DNA of 48,624 nucleotides, from the NCBI GenBank assembly GCA_013178165.1, contig JABLXG010000012.1:1-48624 (forward strand). Reading direction: 5' to 3'. The notes beneath the pieces are model-generated. The model saw only the letters and a list, made by a program, of their open reading frames with translations. It was not told the DNA's origin and did no database searches. The position numbers were made by a program, and so were the translations under genes. The stretch comes from Anaerolineae bacterium. GTDB taxonomy: Bacteria; Chloroflexota; Anaerolineae; Aggregatilineales; Ch27. Shown here piece by piece: positions 834-33,376 of this stretch. Position 1 is the first letter of the stretch, and each line of letters opens with the position of its first letter.

Positions 834-1910
834 ATGCTTCGTCACACACGCTTCTTGTTTCTCACCATCGTGACCCTGGCCCTGCTGGCCGGGGCGGTTT
901 CCGTCCTGGCACAGGAGGGCGGCACGCTCCAGCTTGTGCGTGATCGCGGCAAGTTGATCTGCGGTGTCAACCAGGAACTGCTCGGCTTCGGGTATCTTGA
1001 CCCCAACACTAGCGAAATTGTCGGCTTCGACATCGACTTCTGTAGGGCATACGCCGCTGCTATTTTCGGTGAGGCCAGCGCCGCCACCCTGGAACTGAAC
1101 GTCGTCAGCACGCAAAACCGGCTCACAGCGCTGGCCGCTGGCGAGATCGATGTGCTGGTTCGGAATACCACCTGGACGCTCACCCGTGACACGGAGAACG
1201 CCCTGGACTTTGGCCCGACCAACTTCTACGACGGTCAGACGCTGATGGTCCGCGTGGGCGAAGGCCTGGAAGATAACTGGGACGCCCTCAACGGTGTGAC
1301 GATCTGCTCCACCGCTGGGACAACCACCGAGAAGAACATCACCGACGCTATGAATGCCCGCGGCCTACAGTTCGAGCTGCTGACCTTCGAGAGCACGGCT
1401 GACACCATGTCAGCTTTTGTCGATGGCCGTTGCGATGTGGAGACTTCTGACCGTTCGCAGTTGGTTGCCTTGCGTGCGGCTCAGGCCGACCCTGCTGCCT
1501 ATTACATCTGGCGGGAGAATATCTCCAAAGAACCGTTGGGGCCGGTTTACCGGCAAAACGACTCGCAGTTCGCCGACATCATCAACTGGACAACCTACGG
1601 CCTGATCCAGGCAGAGGAATTCGGTATTACCTCGGCCAACCTCGATCAGTTCCTCCGCCAGGATGGTGAGAATGACGAAGCCTACACCGCCCGTGTCGGC
1701 GCGCAGATTGCCCGCTTCCTGGATGGCTCGTTGGGCATCGGCGGCAAACTGGGTTTGGCCAATGACTTTATGGCCAACGTCATCCGCGCAGTAGGTAACT
1801 ACGGCGAGATTTTCGAGCGTCATCTGGGGGCGGACGGCCTGGGCATGGCGCGCGGCTACAACGCCCTGTGGAGCCAGGGCGGCCTGCAGTACGCGCCTGC
1901 CTGGCGCTAA
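834..1910 (+). CDS. aapJ: general L-amino acid ABC transporter, substrate-binding protein (AapJ/BztA type)
   Basis: Extracytoplasmic solute-binding protein of family 3 (358 aa) that would capture amino acids and deliver them to the AapQM channel. A signal peptide covers residues 1-26 with cleavage after VLA. The mature start (GKLICGVNQELLGFGY) and the segment DFCRAYAAAIFGE are typical of the AapJ/BztA subgroup, which is longer than ordinary family 3 proteins. I chose the ATG at 834 because it gives a clean signal peptide and has GGAGG at 824-828, five bases upstream. An in-frame ATG at 744 would add 30 residues that spoil the signal sequence. It is first of four genes in aapJQMP order, followed by a strong stem-loop before aapQ. 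Substrate range cannot be read from the sequence. Confidence 0.92.
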   Translation: MLRHTRFLFLTIVTLALLAGAVSVLAQEGGTLQLVRDRGKLICGVNQELLGFGYLDPNTSEIVGFDIDFCRAYAAAIFGEASAATLELNVVSTQNRLTALAAGEIDVLVRNTTWTLTRDTENALDFGPTNFYDGQTLMVRVGEGLEDNWDALNGVTICSTAGTTTEKNITDAMNARGLQFELLTFESTADTMSAFVDGRCDVETSDRSQLVALRAAQADPAAYYIWRENISKEPLGPVYRQNDSQFADIINWTTYGLIQAEEFGITSANLDQFLRQDGENDEAYTARVGAQIARFLDGSLGIGGKLGLANDFMANVIRAVGNYGEIFERHLGADGLGMARGYNALWSQGGLQYAPAWR

Positions 1911-2037: not shown

Positions 2038-3261
2038 ATGGAGAGACGCCCGCGCACATTTGACGTGACCGTCCACCAGGTTATTCCCTTCTGGCGGGAC
2101 ATCCGGGTCATTCAGATCGCAGCCCAGTTTATCTTCGCGCTCGTGACGATCCTGATCATCCTGACTCTGGTCAACAACATCTTGACCGCCCTTGCCGCCA
2201 TCGGCCAGCGTCCCAGCCTGGACTTCTGGCAGTCGCCAGCCGGTTTTGACTTCGCCGAGGGGCCGGGCGTCCGTGCTACCGACACGACCCTACGGGCCTT
2301 CACTGTCGGCCTGATCAACACATTGCGGGCGGTCGGCGTCGGGCTGGTCGCTGCCACCATCCTGGGTATACTGGTCGGGGTTGCCCTGCTTTCCCGCAAC
2401 TGGCTGCTGCGCACCCTGACCCAGGCTTACGTGGAAATCTTCCGCAACACGCCCCTGCTGGTGCAATTGCTCTTCTTCTACCAGGGCGTCTTCCGCGCTC
2501 TACCCCAGATTCAGGAAGCAACGGTGTTGCCCGGTCCGGTCTACCTCAGCAACCGGGGATTGGTCATCCCGGCAGTTTTCACAACGGAGACTTTCCCACT
2601 GTGGTTGACCTATGTCCTGGTCGGGATGGTAGCGGGGATGGTGGTCTGGTATGTACGAGCGCGCTACCAGCGGGACACCGGCCAGCCTGGCCACCAGTGG
2701 TTGCTTGGTCTGCTGGCGGTCATCCCCTTTGCCGTAGTAGGCTGGCTGGTGATTGGCCCACCTCCATTCGGGATCAACCTGCCCCAGCCCACTCTGTTCG
2801 AACGGCCCGACGGCGTGACCGTAATTCGGCGCATTGAAGGCGGGGAGATGATCACGCCGGAATACGCCTCGCTGGTGGTCGGGCTGGTGCTCTATACAGC
2901 GGTGTTCATTGGCGAGATCGTACGGGCGGGAATCCAGGCCGTCCCTTACGGGCAGATCGAGGCCGCCCGAGCCCTGGGTCTGACTTATGGCCAGACGCTC
3001 CAGCTCGTGGTGTTGCCGCAGGCGCTGCGCGTGATCATACCGCCGCTGGGTAACCAATACCTGAACCTGGCCAAGAATTCCAGCCTGGCCACGGCCATCG
3101 CCTACGCCGATGTCTTCCAGATTTCCAAGACCCTGATGAGCCAGACCGGCCAGGTGGTGACATTATTCGCCTCGGTCATGCTTGCCTACCTGACCATGAG
3201 TCTGTCGATCTCGGCGGTCATGAACTGGATCAATGCGCGACTCAAGCTGAAGGAGCGCTAA
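2038..3261 (+). CDS. aapQ: general L-amino acid ABC transporter, permease (AapQ/BztB type)
   Basis: Inner-membrane permease (407 aa) forming half of the amino-acid channel with AapM. An N-terminal helix (about 24-55) is followed by a soluble stretch (about 60-90). The transport core begins near residue 85 (TVGLINTLRAVGVGLVAA) and contains the LVQLLFFYQGVF segment. The EAA-type loop that contacts the ATPase is near 300-330 (GQIEAARALGLTYGQTLQLV). The long loop between the core helices, with two extra helices near 180-240, is a feature of the Aap/Bzt subgroup. The ATG at 2038 is preceded by AAGGA. The stop codon is one base before the GTG of aapM, so the two are probably translationally coupled. 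Confidence 0.9.
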   Translation: MERRPRTFDVTVHQVIPFWRDIRVIQIAAQFIFALVTILIILTLVNNILTALAAIGQRPSLDFWQSPAGFDFAEGPGVRATDTTLRAFTVGLINTLRAVGVGLVAATILGILVGVALLSRNWLLRTLTQAYVEIFRNTPLLVQLLFFYQGVFRALPQIQEATVLPGPVYLSNRGLVIPAVFTTETFPLWLTYVLVGMVAGMVVWYVRARYQRDTGQPGHQWLLGLLAVIPFAVVGWLVIGPPPFGINLPQPTLFERPDGVTVIRRIEGGEMITPEYASLVVGLVLYTAVFIGEIVRAGIQAVPYGQIEAARALGLTYGQTLQLVVLPQALRVIIPPLGNQYLNLAKNSSLATAIAYADVFQISKTLMSQTGQVVTLFASVMLAYLTMSLSISAVMNWINARLKLKER

Positions 3262-3262
3262 C

Positions 3263-5110
3263 GTGGCCGGGATAGATTACTACGTTGAAACCGCCCCCCC
3301 GCCCACGCGCAAGCCACCCGTGGTGGAGACGGGCGTGCTGGGCTGGCTGCGGGAGAACCTGTTCAGTTCATGGGGCAACAGTGTGCTCAGCATCCTGACT
3401 GCCGCTTTTCTAGTCTGGTCGCTCGCGGCGGTGCTGCGCTGGGCCATCCAGCAGGCCAACTGGGCCGTGATCACCAGCAACCTGCAACTCTTTGCTCTAG
3501 GTCGCTACCCACAGGATCAGGCCTGGCGCCCGCTGATCGGCGCGGCAGTGCTGATGTTCCTGATTGGGCTGGCCTGGCGGCTATGGGGCCGCGCCGGGTG
3601 GGTGGTGGTGGCGGTGGCGGTCGTGAGCCTGGCCCTGTTGTTCATCTTCCCGGTGGTGGCTGCCAGCTTACCGATCCCCGACGTGCATCTGCTGATCGGC
3701 GGCCCTACCACCGAGCCGCTGCCAGTCCTGGCCTATACCGCGCAGGCAGGCCAGACAGTCACCTTCACCTTGCAGCCCACCTCTTTTGAGACGCCACCGC
3801 CAAAAGGCTTCATCGATTCTGCTTCGCTGACGGTCTACGGCCTGGGGCGGCAGAACATGCGCGCAGCACAACTTCAGGCGGAGCGCGCCCGCGCCGCAGG
3901 GGAGGAACCGCCAGCGGAGATACCGCCAGATCTGGTGGCGACAGTCATCCTGCGCAACGCGGCGGGCGAGACGCTGGTCTCCCTGGCCGCCGGCCCTGCC
4001 CCGCGGTCGGCAACGCTGACCTGGACCTTTCCGGAAGGCGGCTGGTACCTGTTGGAGCTGGCAGGAGAGGGAGAAGCCGGCGCCTTCTGGCTGGACATTT
4101 CGGCTATCATGCCGCTTTCCACGGCTGGCGGGGAAATCACGGCACGTGAGGCGCTCTACGGGCTACCGCCGACGCTGGAAGGCCGCCGTGTCCGAGTGAT
4201 GGATACGTCCTTGCTGGGCTTTCAGGGCTTGGCCACCCTGAGCGATTACGTCAAGCTGCACCTGGGGCCGATCAGCCTGGCCCTGCGCGACTTCGTGCTG
4301 GTCATGATCATAGTCACTGCGGCAGGCTATGGACTGGGCGCCCTGATCCGGGGGCAGTGGTGGGCCAAACGTGTTGCTTTGGCCGCCTGGACAATCTCAT
4401 CGGTGCTGATCTTCATCCTGATCCTGGGCGTGGAAGGCGCGCCCTCCCTGCCGGTCGTGAGCATGGAGCGCTGGGGCGGGCTGCTACTGACGGTGACACT
4501 GACCGTGGTGGGCATTGTCGCTGCTTTCCCGATCGGCGTACTGCTGGCGCTGGGCCGTCGCAGCGAGCTACCGGTGGTACGCATCTTCTGCACGCTGGCC
4601 ATCGAGCTGGTGCGTGGCGTGCCGCTGGTCACGATTCTGTTCATGGCCTCGTTGCTGGTCCCGCTGCTCGATCCCCGCCTGTCCAGCGTGGACAACGTGA
4701 TCCGGGCGATGTTCGGCATCACCTTCTTCAGCGCGGCCTACCTGGCGGAGATTGTACGCGGCGGGCTGCAGGCCGTGCCTTACGGCCAGACGGAAGCGGC
4801 CAAGGCGCTGGGGATGCCCGGTTGGCAGATCATCGCCTTGATCGTGCTGCCACAGGCACTGCGGGCCGTGATCCCGGCGATCATGGGCCAGTTTGTCAGC
4901 CTGTTCAAAGATACATCGCTGGTGCTGATCATCGGCCTGCTCGACCTGCTGGGCATCGCCCGCTCGGTGATCAACCAAGCCGAATACATTGGTCTGCAGC
5001 GGGAGACACTGGTCTTCATCTCTGTGATCTATTTCGTCATGAGCTACCTGATGTCGTGGGTTAGCCGCCGCCTGGAGGCGACCGGCAGCGGAGTGGTGCG
5101 GCGCGGATAA
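3263..5110 (+). CDS. aapM: general L-amino acid ABC transporter, permease with large extracytoplasmic insert (AapM/BztC type)
   Basis: Second channel subunit, 615 aa, against roughly 380-430 aa for typical AapM. The N-terminus has three hydrophobic helices (about 40-60, 88-106, 112-136). A mostly non-membrane region at about 138-335 follows, containing a beta-rich part ([30 protein letters not shown]) and an Ala/Glu/Arg-rich helix near 198-220. The conserved permease core starts near 340 and includes the EAA loop (about 508-532, [14 protein letters not shown]). Translation starts at GTG 3263, with AAGGAG seven bases upstream inside the end of aapQ. The insert is the odd part. It lies between membrane helices and would face outside, where it could contact AapJ, but its role is unknown. 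Confidence 0.88.
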
Positions 5111-5150: not shown

Positions 5151-5915
5151 ATGGTCAGCACATCACTACAGGACGACTTCCGGGACGAGCCAATCATCAT
5201 CTGCCGCCAGGTCAATAAATGGTTCGGCGATTTCCATGTCCTCAAGGACATTTCCGTGGAGATTCTGCCGAAGGAAGTGGTAGTCATTATCGGGCCATCC
5301 GGCTCCGGCAAGTCTACCTTCATCCGTTGTATCAACCGTCTGGAGGAGCACCAGACCGGCCAGATCATCGTCGACGGGATGGAACTGAGCAACGACATCC
5401 GTAACATCGCCGCCATCCGCCGTGAGATCGGTATGGTCTTCCAGCAGTTCAACCTGTTCCCCCACCTGACCGTGCTGGATAACATCACCCTGGCCCAGCG
5501 CTGGAGTCGGCGGCGGCCCAAAGCGGAAGCCGAACAGCGGGCGATGCAGCTTCTGGAGCGGGTGGGCATCCCGGAGCAGGCGGCCAAGTACCCCGGCCAG
5601 CTTTCCGGCGGGCAGCAGCAGCGGGTAGCGATCGCCCGCGCCCTGGCCATGGACCCCAAGATCATGCTCTTTGACGAGCCGACCAGCGCGCTTGATCCGG
5701 AAATGATCAAAGAGGTGCTGGATGTGATGAAAGAACTGGCCCTGAGCGGAATGACCATGATCGTTGTCACCCATGAGATGGGCTTCGCCCGCGAGGTGGC
5801 TGACCGTGTCCTGTTTATGGATCAGGGGCGCATCGTGGAAGCGGGGACGCCACAGCACTTCTTTGAGAACGCGCAGCACGAACGCACCAGGCTCTTCCTG
5901 AGCCAGATCCTCTAA
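5151..5915 (+). CDS. aapP: general L-amino acid ABC transporter, ATP-binding protein
   Basis: Cytoplasmic ATPase (254 aa) that powers the AapQM channel, of the polar amino-acid (GlnQ/HisP) class. All nucleotide-binding motifs are intact: Walker [10 protein letters not shown] at 48-56, Q-loop Gln98/99, signature [15 protein letters not shown] from 151, Walker B IMLFDE at 171-176 and switch His208. The sequence [12 protein letters not shown] at 101-112 is typical of this class. It lies 40 bases after aapM with GAGG just upstream of the ATG and closes the operon. A hairpin at 5939-5968 between it and the convergent gene could terminate transcription from both sides. Confidence 0.93.
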
Positions 5916-30048: not shown

Positions 30049-30945
30049 CTATCCCTTCAGCCCGGTCATGACGATACCTTTGATAAAGTAACGCTGGGCA
30101 AAGAAGAACAGGATAATCACCGGGACAATCATGGCCGTGGAGGCCGCCATGAGCAGTTCCCAGCGGGTGGCCAGCACACTGCGGAAGGTGGCCAGACCGA
30201 CCGCTACTGTGAACTTGTCCGGCGAATTGAGATAGATCAACGGGCCGAAGAAATCGTTCCACGATCCCAGGAAAGTGAAGATACCCACCGTAATCAGTGG
30301 CGGCTTGGCCAGCGGCAACATGATCCGCCAGAAGATCTCGAACTCGCCAGCCCCGTCGATACGGGCAGCATCGGAAAGCTCCTCCGGGATGGTGCGGAAG
30401 AACTGGCGCAGCAGGAAGATGTAGAACGATCCCCCACCAAAGAATTGCGGGACAGTCAGCGGCAGGAAGGTATCCACCCAGCCCAGGCGCGAAAACAGGA
30501 TGAAGGTCGGCACGACCAGCACCACGTACGGCATGATCATCGTGCCGATGACAATAGCGAACCAGAAATCGCGGCCCGGAAAGCGCAGCCGGGCGAAGCC
30601 ATAGGCGCACAGCGAGGCCGTCCCCAGCGTGGCAATCTCATTCAGGATAATGATCAGCAGGCTGTTGCGCAGGTAGAGGTGAAACGGCTTGTAGGTCAGC
30701 GCGTTGACGTAGTTGTCCCATTGCACCGGGTTAGGGATCCACTGGGGTGGGTACTGGAAAATCTGGTGCTGTTGCTTGAGCGAGCTGCTCACCAGCCAGA
30801 CAAACGGCAAAAACATCACAATCGCAACCGCGATCAGGATCGCGATCGTGGCCAGCCGCCAGATAAAATCGACGCTGAGGTACTTCTCCCTGAAGTGTGC
30901 CTGCGCCGTCCGGGTGGAGATCGTTGTGCTCATGCTGTTTCCCAT
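30049..30945 (-). CDS. carbohydrate ABC transporter permease (MalG-type, CUT1)
   Basis: Inner-membrane permease, about 298 aa, with six predicted helices. The first is near 25-45 ([20 protein letters not shown]). The segment [19 protein letters not shown] begins the conserved core, and the EAA loop (about 190-210) reads [19 protein letters not shown], the CUT1 form. It ends with [21 protein letters not shown], typical of MalG-type subunits. It pairs with the MalF-type subunit encoded just upstream. I start it at the ATG at 30945, one base after that gene's stop. ATG 30933 is also possible and no strong ribosome-binding site decides. No ATPase gene is present, so a shared MsmK-type ATPase elsewhere is expected. 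Confidence 0.88.
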
Positions 30946-30946
30946 G

Positions 30947-31897
30947 TCATACATTCTCGTAGTAAACCTGACTGCCGTAGTACTTGAAAACCAGGAAGGT
31001 GAAGATGGCAATGATGCCAAACAGCACCCAGGACAGCACGGCAGCGTACCCCATATTGAGGTACTCAAAGGCGTTGCGGTAAATGTATAGCACCAGGAAC
31101 AGCGTGCCGTTCTGCGGGCCGCCGTCCGTGATCAGGAAACCGGCGGTAAACACCTGGAATGAGCCGATGATGCCCATGATCAGGTTGAAGAAAATCACCG
31201 GCGACATCACCGGGATGGTGATGTAACGCAATTTCTGCCAGCGGCCAGCCCCATCGATCTCCGCAGCTTCGTAGTAGATATCCGGGATGCCCTGCAGGCC
31301 AGCCAGAAAGACGATCATGGCGCTGCCCACGCCCCACAGGCTCATGACGATCATCGCCACCAGCGCCCAGCCCGGCTCCTGTAGCCACTTGACCTTGTTC
31401 AGGCCGATCGCCCTGAGGACGACATTCAGCAGGCCGAACTCGGTATTGAAGATCCAGGCCCACAGCACGGCATTGGCTACCGCCGGCACAATACTGGGCA
31501 GGTAGTAGATCGTCCGGAAAAAAGCGATGCCGCGAATCTTGGTGTTGATCAGCAACGCCAGCAGAAAGCTCATTGTCAGCCCCAGCGGCACCGAGGCAAA
31601 CGTATAAATCGAGGTGACCTTAAGCGACTGCCAGAACAAGGCGTCTTTGGCCAGATCCTCAAAATTCTTCAGCCCAACGAATTGCGGCTCCGCAATCATG
31701 TTCCAGCGGGTGAAAACCAGATACACCGCTGTCAGCGCCGGGAGGATGAAGAACAGGAAGAACCCCAGGATAAACGGCGAAATGAACAGGTAGCCGGTGA
31801 TTGTCCGCCGCTGGGACAGCGTCAGGTTTTGTAACCAACCGAAACCACCTGCTGGCCTGCCTCCGGCTGTGGGTGCAGTAGAACTGGTCGCGGTCAT
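30947..31897 (-). CDS. carbohydrate ABC transporter permease (MalF-type, CUT1)
   Basis: Inner-membrane permease of 316 aa. The first helix is near 35-58 ([20 protein letters not shown]), followed by [20 protein letters not shown], characteristic of MalF/UgpA-type subunits. The EAA loop (about 210-230) reads [19 protein letters not shown]. The [28 protein letters not shown] region closes the core. I start at ATG 31897, since the in-frame TTG at 31924 is less likely. AGGA lies about ten bases upstream. It sits between the binding-protein gene, with a strong stem-loop in the 93-base gap, and the MalG-type permease gene. Confidence 0.89.
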
Positions 31898-31990: not shown

Positions 31991-33376
31991 CTAGGCGTTG
32001 ATGTACTCTGCAGTCAGGATGGCGTTCGCTTCCGCAACGGCAGGCGGGATCAGCTCTGCAGCTGGGCCTTCGCCATTCATGACCCGCTCCAGCGCCGGGT
32101 AGAAGATCGACTGCGCGCGTGGGAAGCCCGCCGGAACCAGGGTCGGACTCATGTGCTTGGGGATGTACTCGGACACGAACTTGCGATAGTTGGCCGGGTG
32201 CATGCCCTCCGTGATCCACTCGTCCATGCCCTCTTCCGTCAGCATGGCAGTCTGGTTGGGGATCCACAGGCCCAGCTTGCAGAAATGGGTCTGGTAGAAC
32301 GGCGTCGCCAGGAAGCGCAACCACTTCCAGGACGCTTCGACCTTCTGAGTGCCCTTCAGGATGCAGTGCAGGTGACCCTGGCCGGAGGCCTGCCCATTGG
32401 GGCTGAGCACCGGCACCGGCCCTACACCCAGCGACGGCACGACATACATGTAGGACAGCGCCCACGAGCCATCCAGCACCATAGCCAGACGCCGGGTATC
32501 GAGCATCTGCGTGGCGCTCATGCCCAGCTCGTTGAAGAACACCGCCTGCGGCATGACGTGATGGACATGAATCAGGTCGGCAAAGGCCTGGATGCCGGCC
32601 AGCGCCTCCGGGGTGTCCAGCGTCAGCAGCTGGCCATCCGAGAGCGCACCGCCGTTGACCTTGGCCAGCTGGTCGAAGGTCATCCACCAGCTCGTGTCGT
32701 AGTAGAAGCCCCACTGAACGACATTGTCGAGATCAAAGCCGGCATCGCCGGGGTGGCGGCCATTGGCATCCTTGGTCAGCAGGCGCGCGGCTTCCAGGAA
32801 GGTATCCCAGTCCCAGATCTTGTCATCATCAAAATCAGGGGGTTCGATGCCCGCTTCCTCAAAAAGGTCTTTGTTAATGAACAGGTGATTGGCCGTCCAG
32901 GTGGAGCCAATCCCGTGCCAGCGACCGTTTTCGTCGGTGCAGCGTTGCGTCTCCTGCGGCTGAACGAAGTAGTTTTCCTGGCTCAGCAGCGGATCGCTCA
33001 TGACAAAGTCGGTGATGTCGGTAGTCAGGCCGTCATGCACCAGTGTCCTGAATTGCGACTGGCTGATGAAAGCAGTATCAGGCGGCGTCCCGGCGGCGAC
33101 ATTCGCCAGCAGCTTCTCATTGTAGTTATCTGGCGTATGCATCCAGGTGACGCGGACTTCATCCTGCTCGGCCTCAAACACCGCGATGGCGGCCCGCACC
33201 CCTTCATCTTCTGCCACGTCGCCCCACCCCATGAAGGTGATCGTGGTAGGGCCTTGTCGGTTGGGCGCCGCAAAGACCGGACCGCCCCTGAGGAATTGCG
33301 TCCCGGCCGCAGCCGACGCCGCCGAAACTCCCATCAGCTTGATGAAGTCGCGACGAGACAATCTTGTCCTGGCCAT
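31991..33376 (-). CDS. sugar ABC transporter substrate-binding protein (family 1, Tat-exported)
   Basis: A 461-residue extracytoplasmic binding protein. The N-terminus MARTRLSRRDFIKLMG has the twin-arginine motif (Arg8-Arg9), then a hydrophobic stretch and an Ala-rich cleavage region, so it would be exported folded by Tat. The mature protein begins near TITFMGWGDVAEDEG and has the family 1 layout (AVFEAEQDEVRVTWMHTPDN, LLTKDANGRHPGD, VDVPAAF-like C-terminal lobe with many Trp and Tyr). Aromatic richness fits oligosaccharide binding, but the sugar is unknown. The start has AAGGAG upstream. It is the first gene of a three-gene operon divergent from an AraC-type regulator. Confidence 0.88.
   Translation of the reverse strand: MARTRLSRRDFIKLMGVSAASAAAGTQFLRGGPVFAAPNRQGPTTITFMGWGDVAEDEGVRAAIAVFEAEQDEVRVTWMHTPDNYNEKLLANVAAGTPPDTAFISQSQFRTLVHDGLTTDITDFVMSDPLLSQENYFVQPQETQRCTDENGRWHGIGSTWTANHLFINKDLFEEAGIEPPDFDDDKIWDWDTFLEAARLLTKDANGRHPGDAGFDLDNVVQWGFYYDTSWWMTFDQLAKVNGGALSDGQLLTLDTPEALAGIQAFADLIHVHHVMPQAVFFNELGMSATQMLDTRRLAMVLDGSWALSYMYVVPSLGVGPVPVLSPNGQASGQGHLHCILKGTQKVEASWKWLRFLATPFYQTHFCKLGLWIPNQTAMLTEEGMDEWITEGMHPANYRKFVSEYIPKHMSPTLVPAGFPRAQSIFYPALERVMNGEGPAAELIPPAVAEANAILTAEYINA

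Follow-up and report, generated by a model that had tools for sequence, protein, structure and literature searches.

The 48,624 nucleotide stretch of Anaerolineae DNA analysed here, referred to below as the window, encodes a 615-residue protein which, judged by its sequence, is an AapM-type permease of a predicted type I amino-acid ABC importer. Inserted between its membrane helices 3 and 4 is a folded domain that is absent from ordinary AapM proteins. This elaborated form of a known permease family is real, is predicted with confidence and occurs in most of the examined members of one order, the Aggregatilineales (formerly SBR1031, according to excerpts of PMC8067394); it offers an order-wide example of an outer domain gained by the permease of a type I ABC importer. 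The anatomy and distribution of the domain are, in our judgment, close to certain. For its main function, the leading reading is docking of the solute-binding protein AapJ, to which we assign a probability of about 0.4.

The genes at the window locus are arranged in the order aapJ-aapQ-aapM-aapP. The features of the locus and the parts of AapM, with the evidence for each, are as follows.

834..1907, + strand: AapJ-type solute-binding protein (Pfam SBP_bac_3, 49.7 bits; N-terminus inspected)
2038..3258, + strand: AapQ-type permease, 407 aa, without extra domain (BPD_transp_1, 60.8 bits; alignment)
3263..5110, + strand: AapM-type permease, 615 aa, GTG start (BPD_transp_1, 64.8 bits; HEQRo_perm_3TM, 67 bits)
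3371..3667, + strand: AapM membrane helices 1-3, residues 37-64, 88-108 and 113-135 (AlphaFold2 model, hydropathy)
3668..4237, + strand: predicted extracytoplasmic PPC-like beta-sandwich domain with C-terminal linker, residues 136-325 (AlphaFold2, hhalign, 83-sequence alignment)
3818..3895, + strand: helical arm within the sandwich, residues 186-211 (models, alignment)
4238..4426, + strand: AapM membrane helices 4-5, residues 326-361 and 366-388 (whole-protein model)
4472..5086, + strand: conserved permease core, residues 404-608 (Pfam match at 422-604; 4yms_C structural match)
5151..5912, + strand: AapP-type ATPase (ABC_tran, 136.8 bits)

Assignment of the 615-residue protein follows from its core, which scores above the curated cut-offs of both BPD_transp_1 (64.8 vs 26.4) and HEQRo_perm_3TM (67 vs 42.2). 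The BPD_transp_1 match is confined to residues 422-604. No AapM-specific NCBIfam model was among the matches, and the protein fell under every cut-off of the equivalogs GltK, EhuC/D, GlnP and others, the best being GltK with 121.8 vs 318. The model of the whole protein superimposes on an amino-acid importer chain, 4yms_C, with a Z-score of 16.5 and an rmsd of 4.1 over 211 residues. With ordinary AapM/BztC proteins (AapJQMP/Bzt) it shares operon order, the BPD_transp_1 and HEQRo_perm_3TM core, a W..xNLF motif and extra N-terminal helices, and its core is 57-68% identical to those of domain-less Chloroflexota AapM (L005-L033). It differs from them in being about 200 residues longer and in the folded outer domain that separates its helices 3 and 4.

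AlphaFold2 modelled the isolated segment with a mean pLDDT of 93.0 and a pTM of 0.86, and the whole protein with values of 91.2 and 0.83; the two models agree. In both, the domain is a beta-sandwich with one helical arm, its strands falling within residues 141-280 and its helix at 186-211, and the models and hydropathy place a further small helix at 289-299. The arm is longer in many relatives, as seen in the alignment. An initial annotation, made from the letters of the DNA, had described an extra region at about residues 138-335 with beta-rich segments and an Ala/Glu/Arg-rich helix. Both elements are present, the helix being that at 186-211, and its boundaries were right to within about 10 residues. 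The same annotation had set the insert directly between the N-terminal helices and the core; three helices do precede it, but two further membrane helices follow before the core is reached. Hydropathy and the two models concur in placing the domain between helices 3 and 4, and we infer that it faces outside from the alternation of helices combined with the usual membrane orientation of the permease core; counts of loop charges left the orientation undecided. The confidently modelled beta-sandwich rules out an insert that is disordered or composed of membrane helices. Nor is it an artefact of assembly or reading frame, since 83 distinct sequences from many genomes share this architecture.

These 83 domain-bearing AapM proteins, all from the Aggregatilineales, with the window's included and some cut at a contig end, align over the domain. 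Presence and absence were judged by how many residues separate the N-terminal W..xN[LF] motif from the permease core, a spacing measured only in proteins with the motif. The distance is 368-885 residues in 81 domain-bearing AapM, compared with 168-194 in seven domain-less AapM of the Aggregatilineales. In 27 AapM of other Chloroflexota it is 165-176, and 66 of 74 loci from named genomes (L143-L217 without L146) give values of 122-265. The longest two of the named loci, L149 and L150, show additional hydrophobic stretches by eye and lack this domain. The possibility that the domain is a general feature of AapM/BztC is ruled out by these distances, and the insert is missing from the 27 other Chloroflexota proteins, the 66 named-genome proteins and family f96 of the Aggregatilineales. 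The earlier estimate of a protein about 200 residues longer than usual therefore holds, and the proposal of a built-in external domain is supported, since the insert is predicted to be folded and ordinary AapM lacks it. As binding partners of such a domain, the annotation had suggested substrate, AapJ or the envelope, and any of these would be conjecture on the present evidence.

Similarity searches gave a less direct view of the distribution. In a sample of the phylum, AapM matches at E<=1e-30 were obtained in 97 of 400 genomes; the best alignments, the window's own excepted, started at query residues 318-423, and the frames were mostly about 395-455 residues long. In a sample of the order, 131 of 151 genomes gave a match, many of them full-length. 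A BLAST match that starts near residue 320-400 is no proof that the domain is absent: several relatives known to carry it are likewise matched only from residue 303-400 onward (G240, for example, from 370). Absence was judged from the motif-to-core distances. When the domain alone was used as query, it detected relatives in 7 of the 396 genomes searched in the class, a count that includes the window genome itself. This query missed many genomes that the full-length AapM search had shown to carry the domain, and the low count therefore reflects fast divergence. A tblastn search of the domain against plasmids gave no match, and a first scan of genome contigs detected no relatives.

Within the order, the six AapM of family f96 that were inspected all lack the domain, and the remaining five f96 matches lie in open frames of 423-501 residues, too short to contain it. 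Open frames in family f92 were too short to judge, and family f95 had no AapM match. In a tree of permease cores, built by a quick method that leaves several forks open, 88 Aggregatilineales AapM form one clade with an SH-aLRT value of 99; 82 have the domain and six, all from f96, do not. The domain label requires two changes on this tree, which fits equally a single gain followed by a single loss and an early branching of f96. One further domain-less protein, L085 (G492:C49; family f2, genus g251), is the second AapM copy in its genome. Its core clusters with that of L164, from the Anaerolineales, on a long branch, and it is perhaps a transferred copy.

In two relatives of the window genome, G402 of the same genus and G410 of the same family, nothing matched AapM at E<=1e-30, and their best AapQ matches are distant (E 7.9e-24 and 2.2e-23). 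Unless the genes fall in assembly gaps, the operon seems to be patchy even within the genus. At the other extreme of size, the AapM frames of L070, L071, L121-L124 and L129, all from genus g251 of family f2, are 1131-1147 residues long, and L071 has roughly eight hydrophobic segments between outer domain and core, compared with two in the window protein.

The outer domain is probably a distant relative of PPC domains. As a reference we used 24 PPC domains from the window genome (alignment A3). Comparison of the domain profile with this reference by hhalign gave 93.3% (E 2.6e-7) over 45 columns of the second half, and after removal of the helical-arm columns, a cut chosen following inspection of the models, 96.3% over 82 columns in both halves. 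CARDB controls gave 0.5% and 4.4%, and 60 column shuffles gave at most 1.4%. The top structural neighbour is the collagen-binding domain of ColG (1nqj_A; Z 8.3, rmsd 2.6, 91 residues), and the PPC domain 5sv5 aligns with a Z of 7.8 and an rmsd of 2.4 over 90 residues; a Z of about 8 is shared with DeCLIC (9ev7_C, Z 8.0) and is near the level of unrelated beta-sandwiches. Foldseek returned no match at E<=0.001, and the domain profile, run against the sequences of solved structures, reached a lowest E of 0.47. Pfam reported no family at E<=1 for the window domain, which hence lies under the PPC (PF04151) cut-off, and weak PPC matches in 3 of 83 domain members, with a best E of 0.045. D42 and D60 of A3, two acidic residues shared by all 24 PPC domains, are absent at the aligned window sites. 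Because the domain falls short of the curated cut-off and lacks these residues, it is PPC-like and not a member of the PPC family. It has in common with PPC and collagen-binding domains a predicted beta-sandwich, and with PPC domains a profile match; both kinds are among its best structural neighbours, at scores tied with DeCLIC. It differs in that about 40 residues with the helical arm are inserted and that the domain sits inside a membrane permease.

A PPC domain in the same loop was found elsewhere in the phylum. L141, an AapM from Chloroflexi bacterium SB0664_bin_6, contains a PPC domain at this site that scores 31.8 bits vs a cut-off of 25.9. Unlike the window domain, it is a true PPC domain by Pfam, and the AapJ of this locus carries a lipobox. 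L141 lies on a separate branch of the core tree, and its sisters L216 and L217 have no PPC domain, which argues for a second, independent insertion. Direct kinship between the two domains found no support in a profile comparison (0.3%), which has little power with a single sequence.

A large outer domain in an ABC importer permease has a precedent in MalF of the E. coli maltose importer, where the P2 domain comes after the third helix. Both are domains of roughly 180 residues in an outer loop among N-terminal helices ahead of the permease core, and AapM differs in having two more helices between domain and core. According to excerpts of PMC3150292, MalF-P2 comprises MalF residues 91-271. The window domain has no Pfam match and therefore none to MalF_P2 (PF14785), and its profile gave 0.1% against one P2-like loop from the same genome, a comparison of little power since it involves a single sequence; homology with MalF_P2 is thus unsupported. 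MalF P2 was not among the 50 structural neighbours listed, an observation that carries no weight against kinship. In excerpts of the literature on AapM/BztC, PPC permeases, MalF P2 and Aggregatilineales, we found no account of an AapM with such an outer domain.

The function of the domain was considered together with the presence or absence of a lipobox on AapJ. Lipoboxes were called by a custom pattern and a hydrophobicity rule, not by SignalP; applied to reference AapJ, the rule called a lipobox in 0 of 31 from Pseudomonadota and in 4 of 4 from Bacillota. The signal peptide of the window AapJ (..GAVSVLAQEGG..) has no lipobox. In the wider census, duplicate AapJ were counted once, and seven loci were left out because the N-terminus of their AapJ was cut; in two loci, L130 and L134, AapM lies outside the locus, and its domain was identified from L035 plus G423:C822, and from L054. 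Of 45 distinct loci with a domain-bearing AapM, 44 have an AapJ without lipobox, the exception (L071) being ambiguous. AapJ of other Chloroflexota had a lipobox in 48 of 48 cases, and AapJ beside domain-less AapM of the Aggregatilineales (L077, L085, L086 and L292) lacked one in 4 of 4. Omp85 gave no match in the window genome and matched in 7 of 14 control genomes; excerpts of PMC10608941 group the Chloroflexota in the Terrabacteria with other monoderms. In control genome G005, from the same class and another order, all six binding proteins recognised in the fetched regions have a lipobox. Across loci L315-L352 of the window genome, a lipobox was called in none of the 30 SBP_bac_1 proteins fetched, of 39 matches, and in one of five distinct SBP_bac_3 proteins (L347).

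In the docking reading, the domain would sit next to or over the external opening of the AapQ/AapM pore, would contact AapJ and thereby raise its local concentration, and might orient AapJ for hand-over as MalF P2 does for maltose-binding protein. Holding AapJ could be useful because, without a lipobox and in a genome without an Omp85 match, loose AapJ might be lost. Several observations stand against it. The four lipobox-less AapJ found beside domain-less AapM imply that the domain is unnecessary for a free AapJ. The window genome widely uses lipobox-less binding proteins, yet 97 of the 104 permease matches examined there, of 117, lack an outer loop that reaches 100 residues, AapM being one of the seven that possess one. 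G005, with its lipidated binding proteins, is proportionally at least as rich in such permeases (5 of 45 examined, of 49 entered and 50 listed), and a general gain of outer domains in genomes with unlipidated binding proteins is accordingly unsupported. Finally, L141 combines a PPC domain at the same loop with an AapJ that does have a lipobox. A broader scenario, in which the Aggregatilineales dropped lipid anchoring of solute-binding proteins, even though the single genome searched gave no Omp85 match, and the PPC-like domain of AapM tethers AapJ instead, with a parallel PPC insertion elsewhere in the Chloroflexota, strikes us as doubtful.

Of the alternatives to docking, the most credible, though still rather unlikely, is a structural role: with no specific binding of AapJ, the domain would keep the AapQ/AapM pair stable or cover the pore on its outer side. 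Extra membrane helices in AapM of many Aggregatilineales and in several AapQ suggest remodelling of the entire membrane part, and loose conservation of the domain, with a mean column identity of 22% over 83 sequences, is in keeping with such a role. Against it, the longer AapQ proteins, several of which belong to f2 and f97, gained helices and not a partner domain (in the 11 AapQ aligned, all extra length is membrane helices, so that none is a second carrier), and the window AapQ has no such gain. Binding to envelope or surface polysaccharide, so as to anchor the transporter in wall or matrix, appears unlikely and slightly less credible than a structural role. PPC, collagen-binding and carbohydrate-binding beta-sandwiches anchor secreted enzymes; the nearest folds are of the collagen-binding/PPC type, and carbohydrate-binding modules are among the Foldseek rows. 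A match in fold shows no function, however, the PPC acidic residues D42 and D60 are missing from the window domain, and such binding leaves unexplained why AapM in particular should need it. Least probable is neutral growth, with an insertion at a permissive loop that drifted and expanded without a specific role. The wide range in length of the N-terminal part (motif-to-core 368-885) and the survival of f96 without the domain fit this idea. So do the summed dN/dS of the domain, 0.439 (29 pairs) against 0.241 in the core (33 pairs), and values above 1 for the domain in two distant pairs, where synonymous change is near saturation. The sums for helices 1-3 and helices 4-5 are 0.449 and 0.478. 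Close pairs of AapM nevertheless show purifying selection on the domain: among 33 independent pairs, the eight closest give it a dN/dS of 0.055-0.331, comparable to helices 1-3 and above the core. Two domain columns, a W and a P, are invariant in the 83 sequences and six more are nearly so, and the domain is kept in 82 of 88 clade rows, all of which speaks against drift alone. The domain-less sisters and the independent instance in L141 provide natural controls for this gained domain. With the AapJ lipobox also missing, the case opens to experiment the question of how solute-binding proteins stay at the membrane in bacteria where no outer-membrane assembly protein has been detected.

Several other transport proteins were observed in passing. 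In the window itself, an SBP_bac_1 protein encoded at 32300-33214 on the minus strand has an N-terminus that resembles a twin-arginine signal (SRRDFIKLMG), and its gene is adjoined by two permease matches at 30073-31582. Among the long-loop permeases of the window genome, L384 (G000:C4:369161-369688) has a 377-residue outer loop with no Pfam match, and L387 (G000:C23:31628-32242) gives a weak MalF_P2 match of 24.0 bits vs a cut-off of 34.4. The 195-residue outer loop of the ABC permease L390 (G000:C3:132744-133337) contains bacterial SH3_3 repeats (44.4 bits), and that of L417 (G005:C1:1068717-1069259), a permease of G005, has a CxxCH motif (CASCH) like those of cytochromes c.
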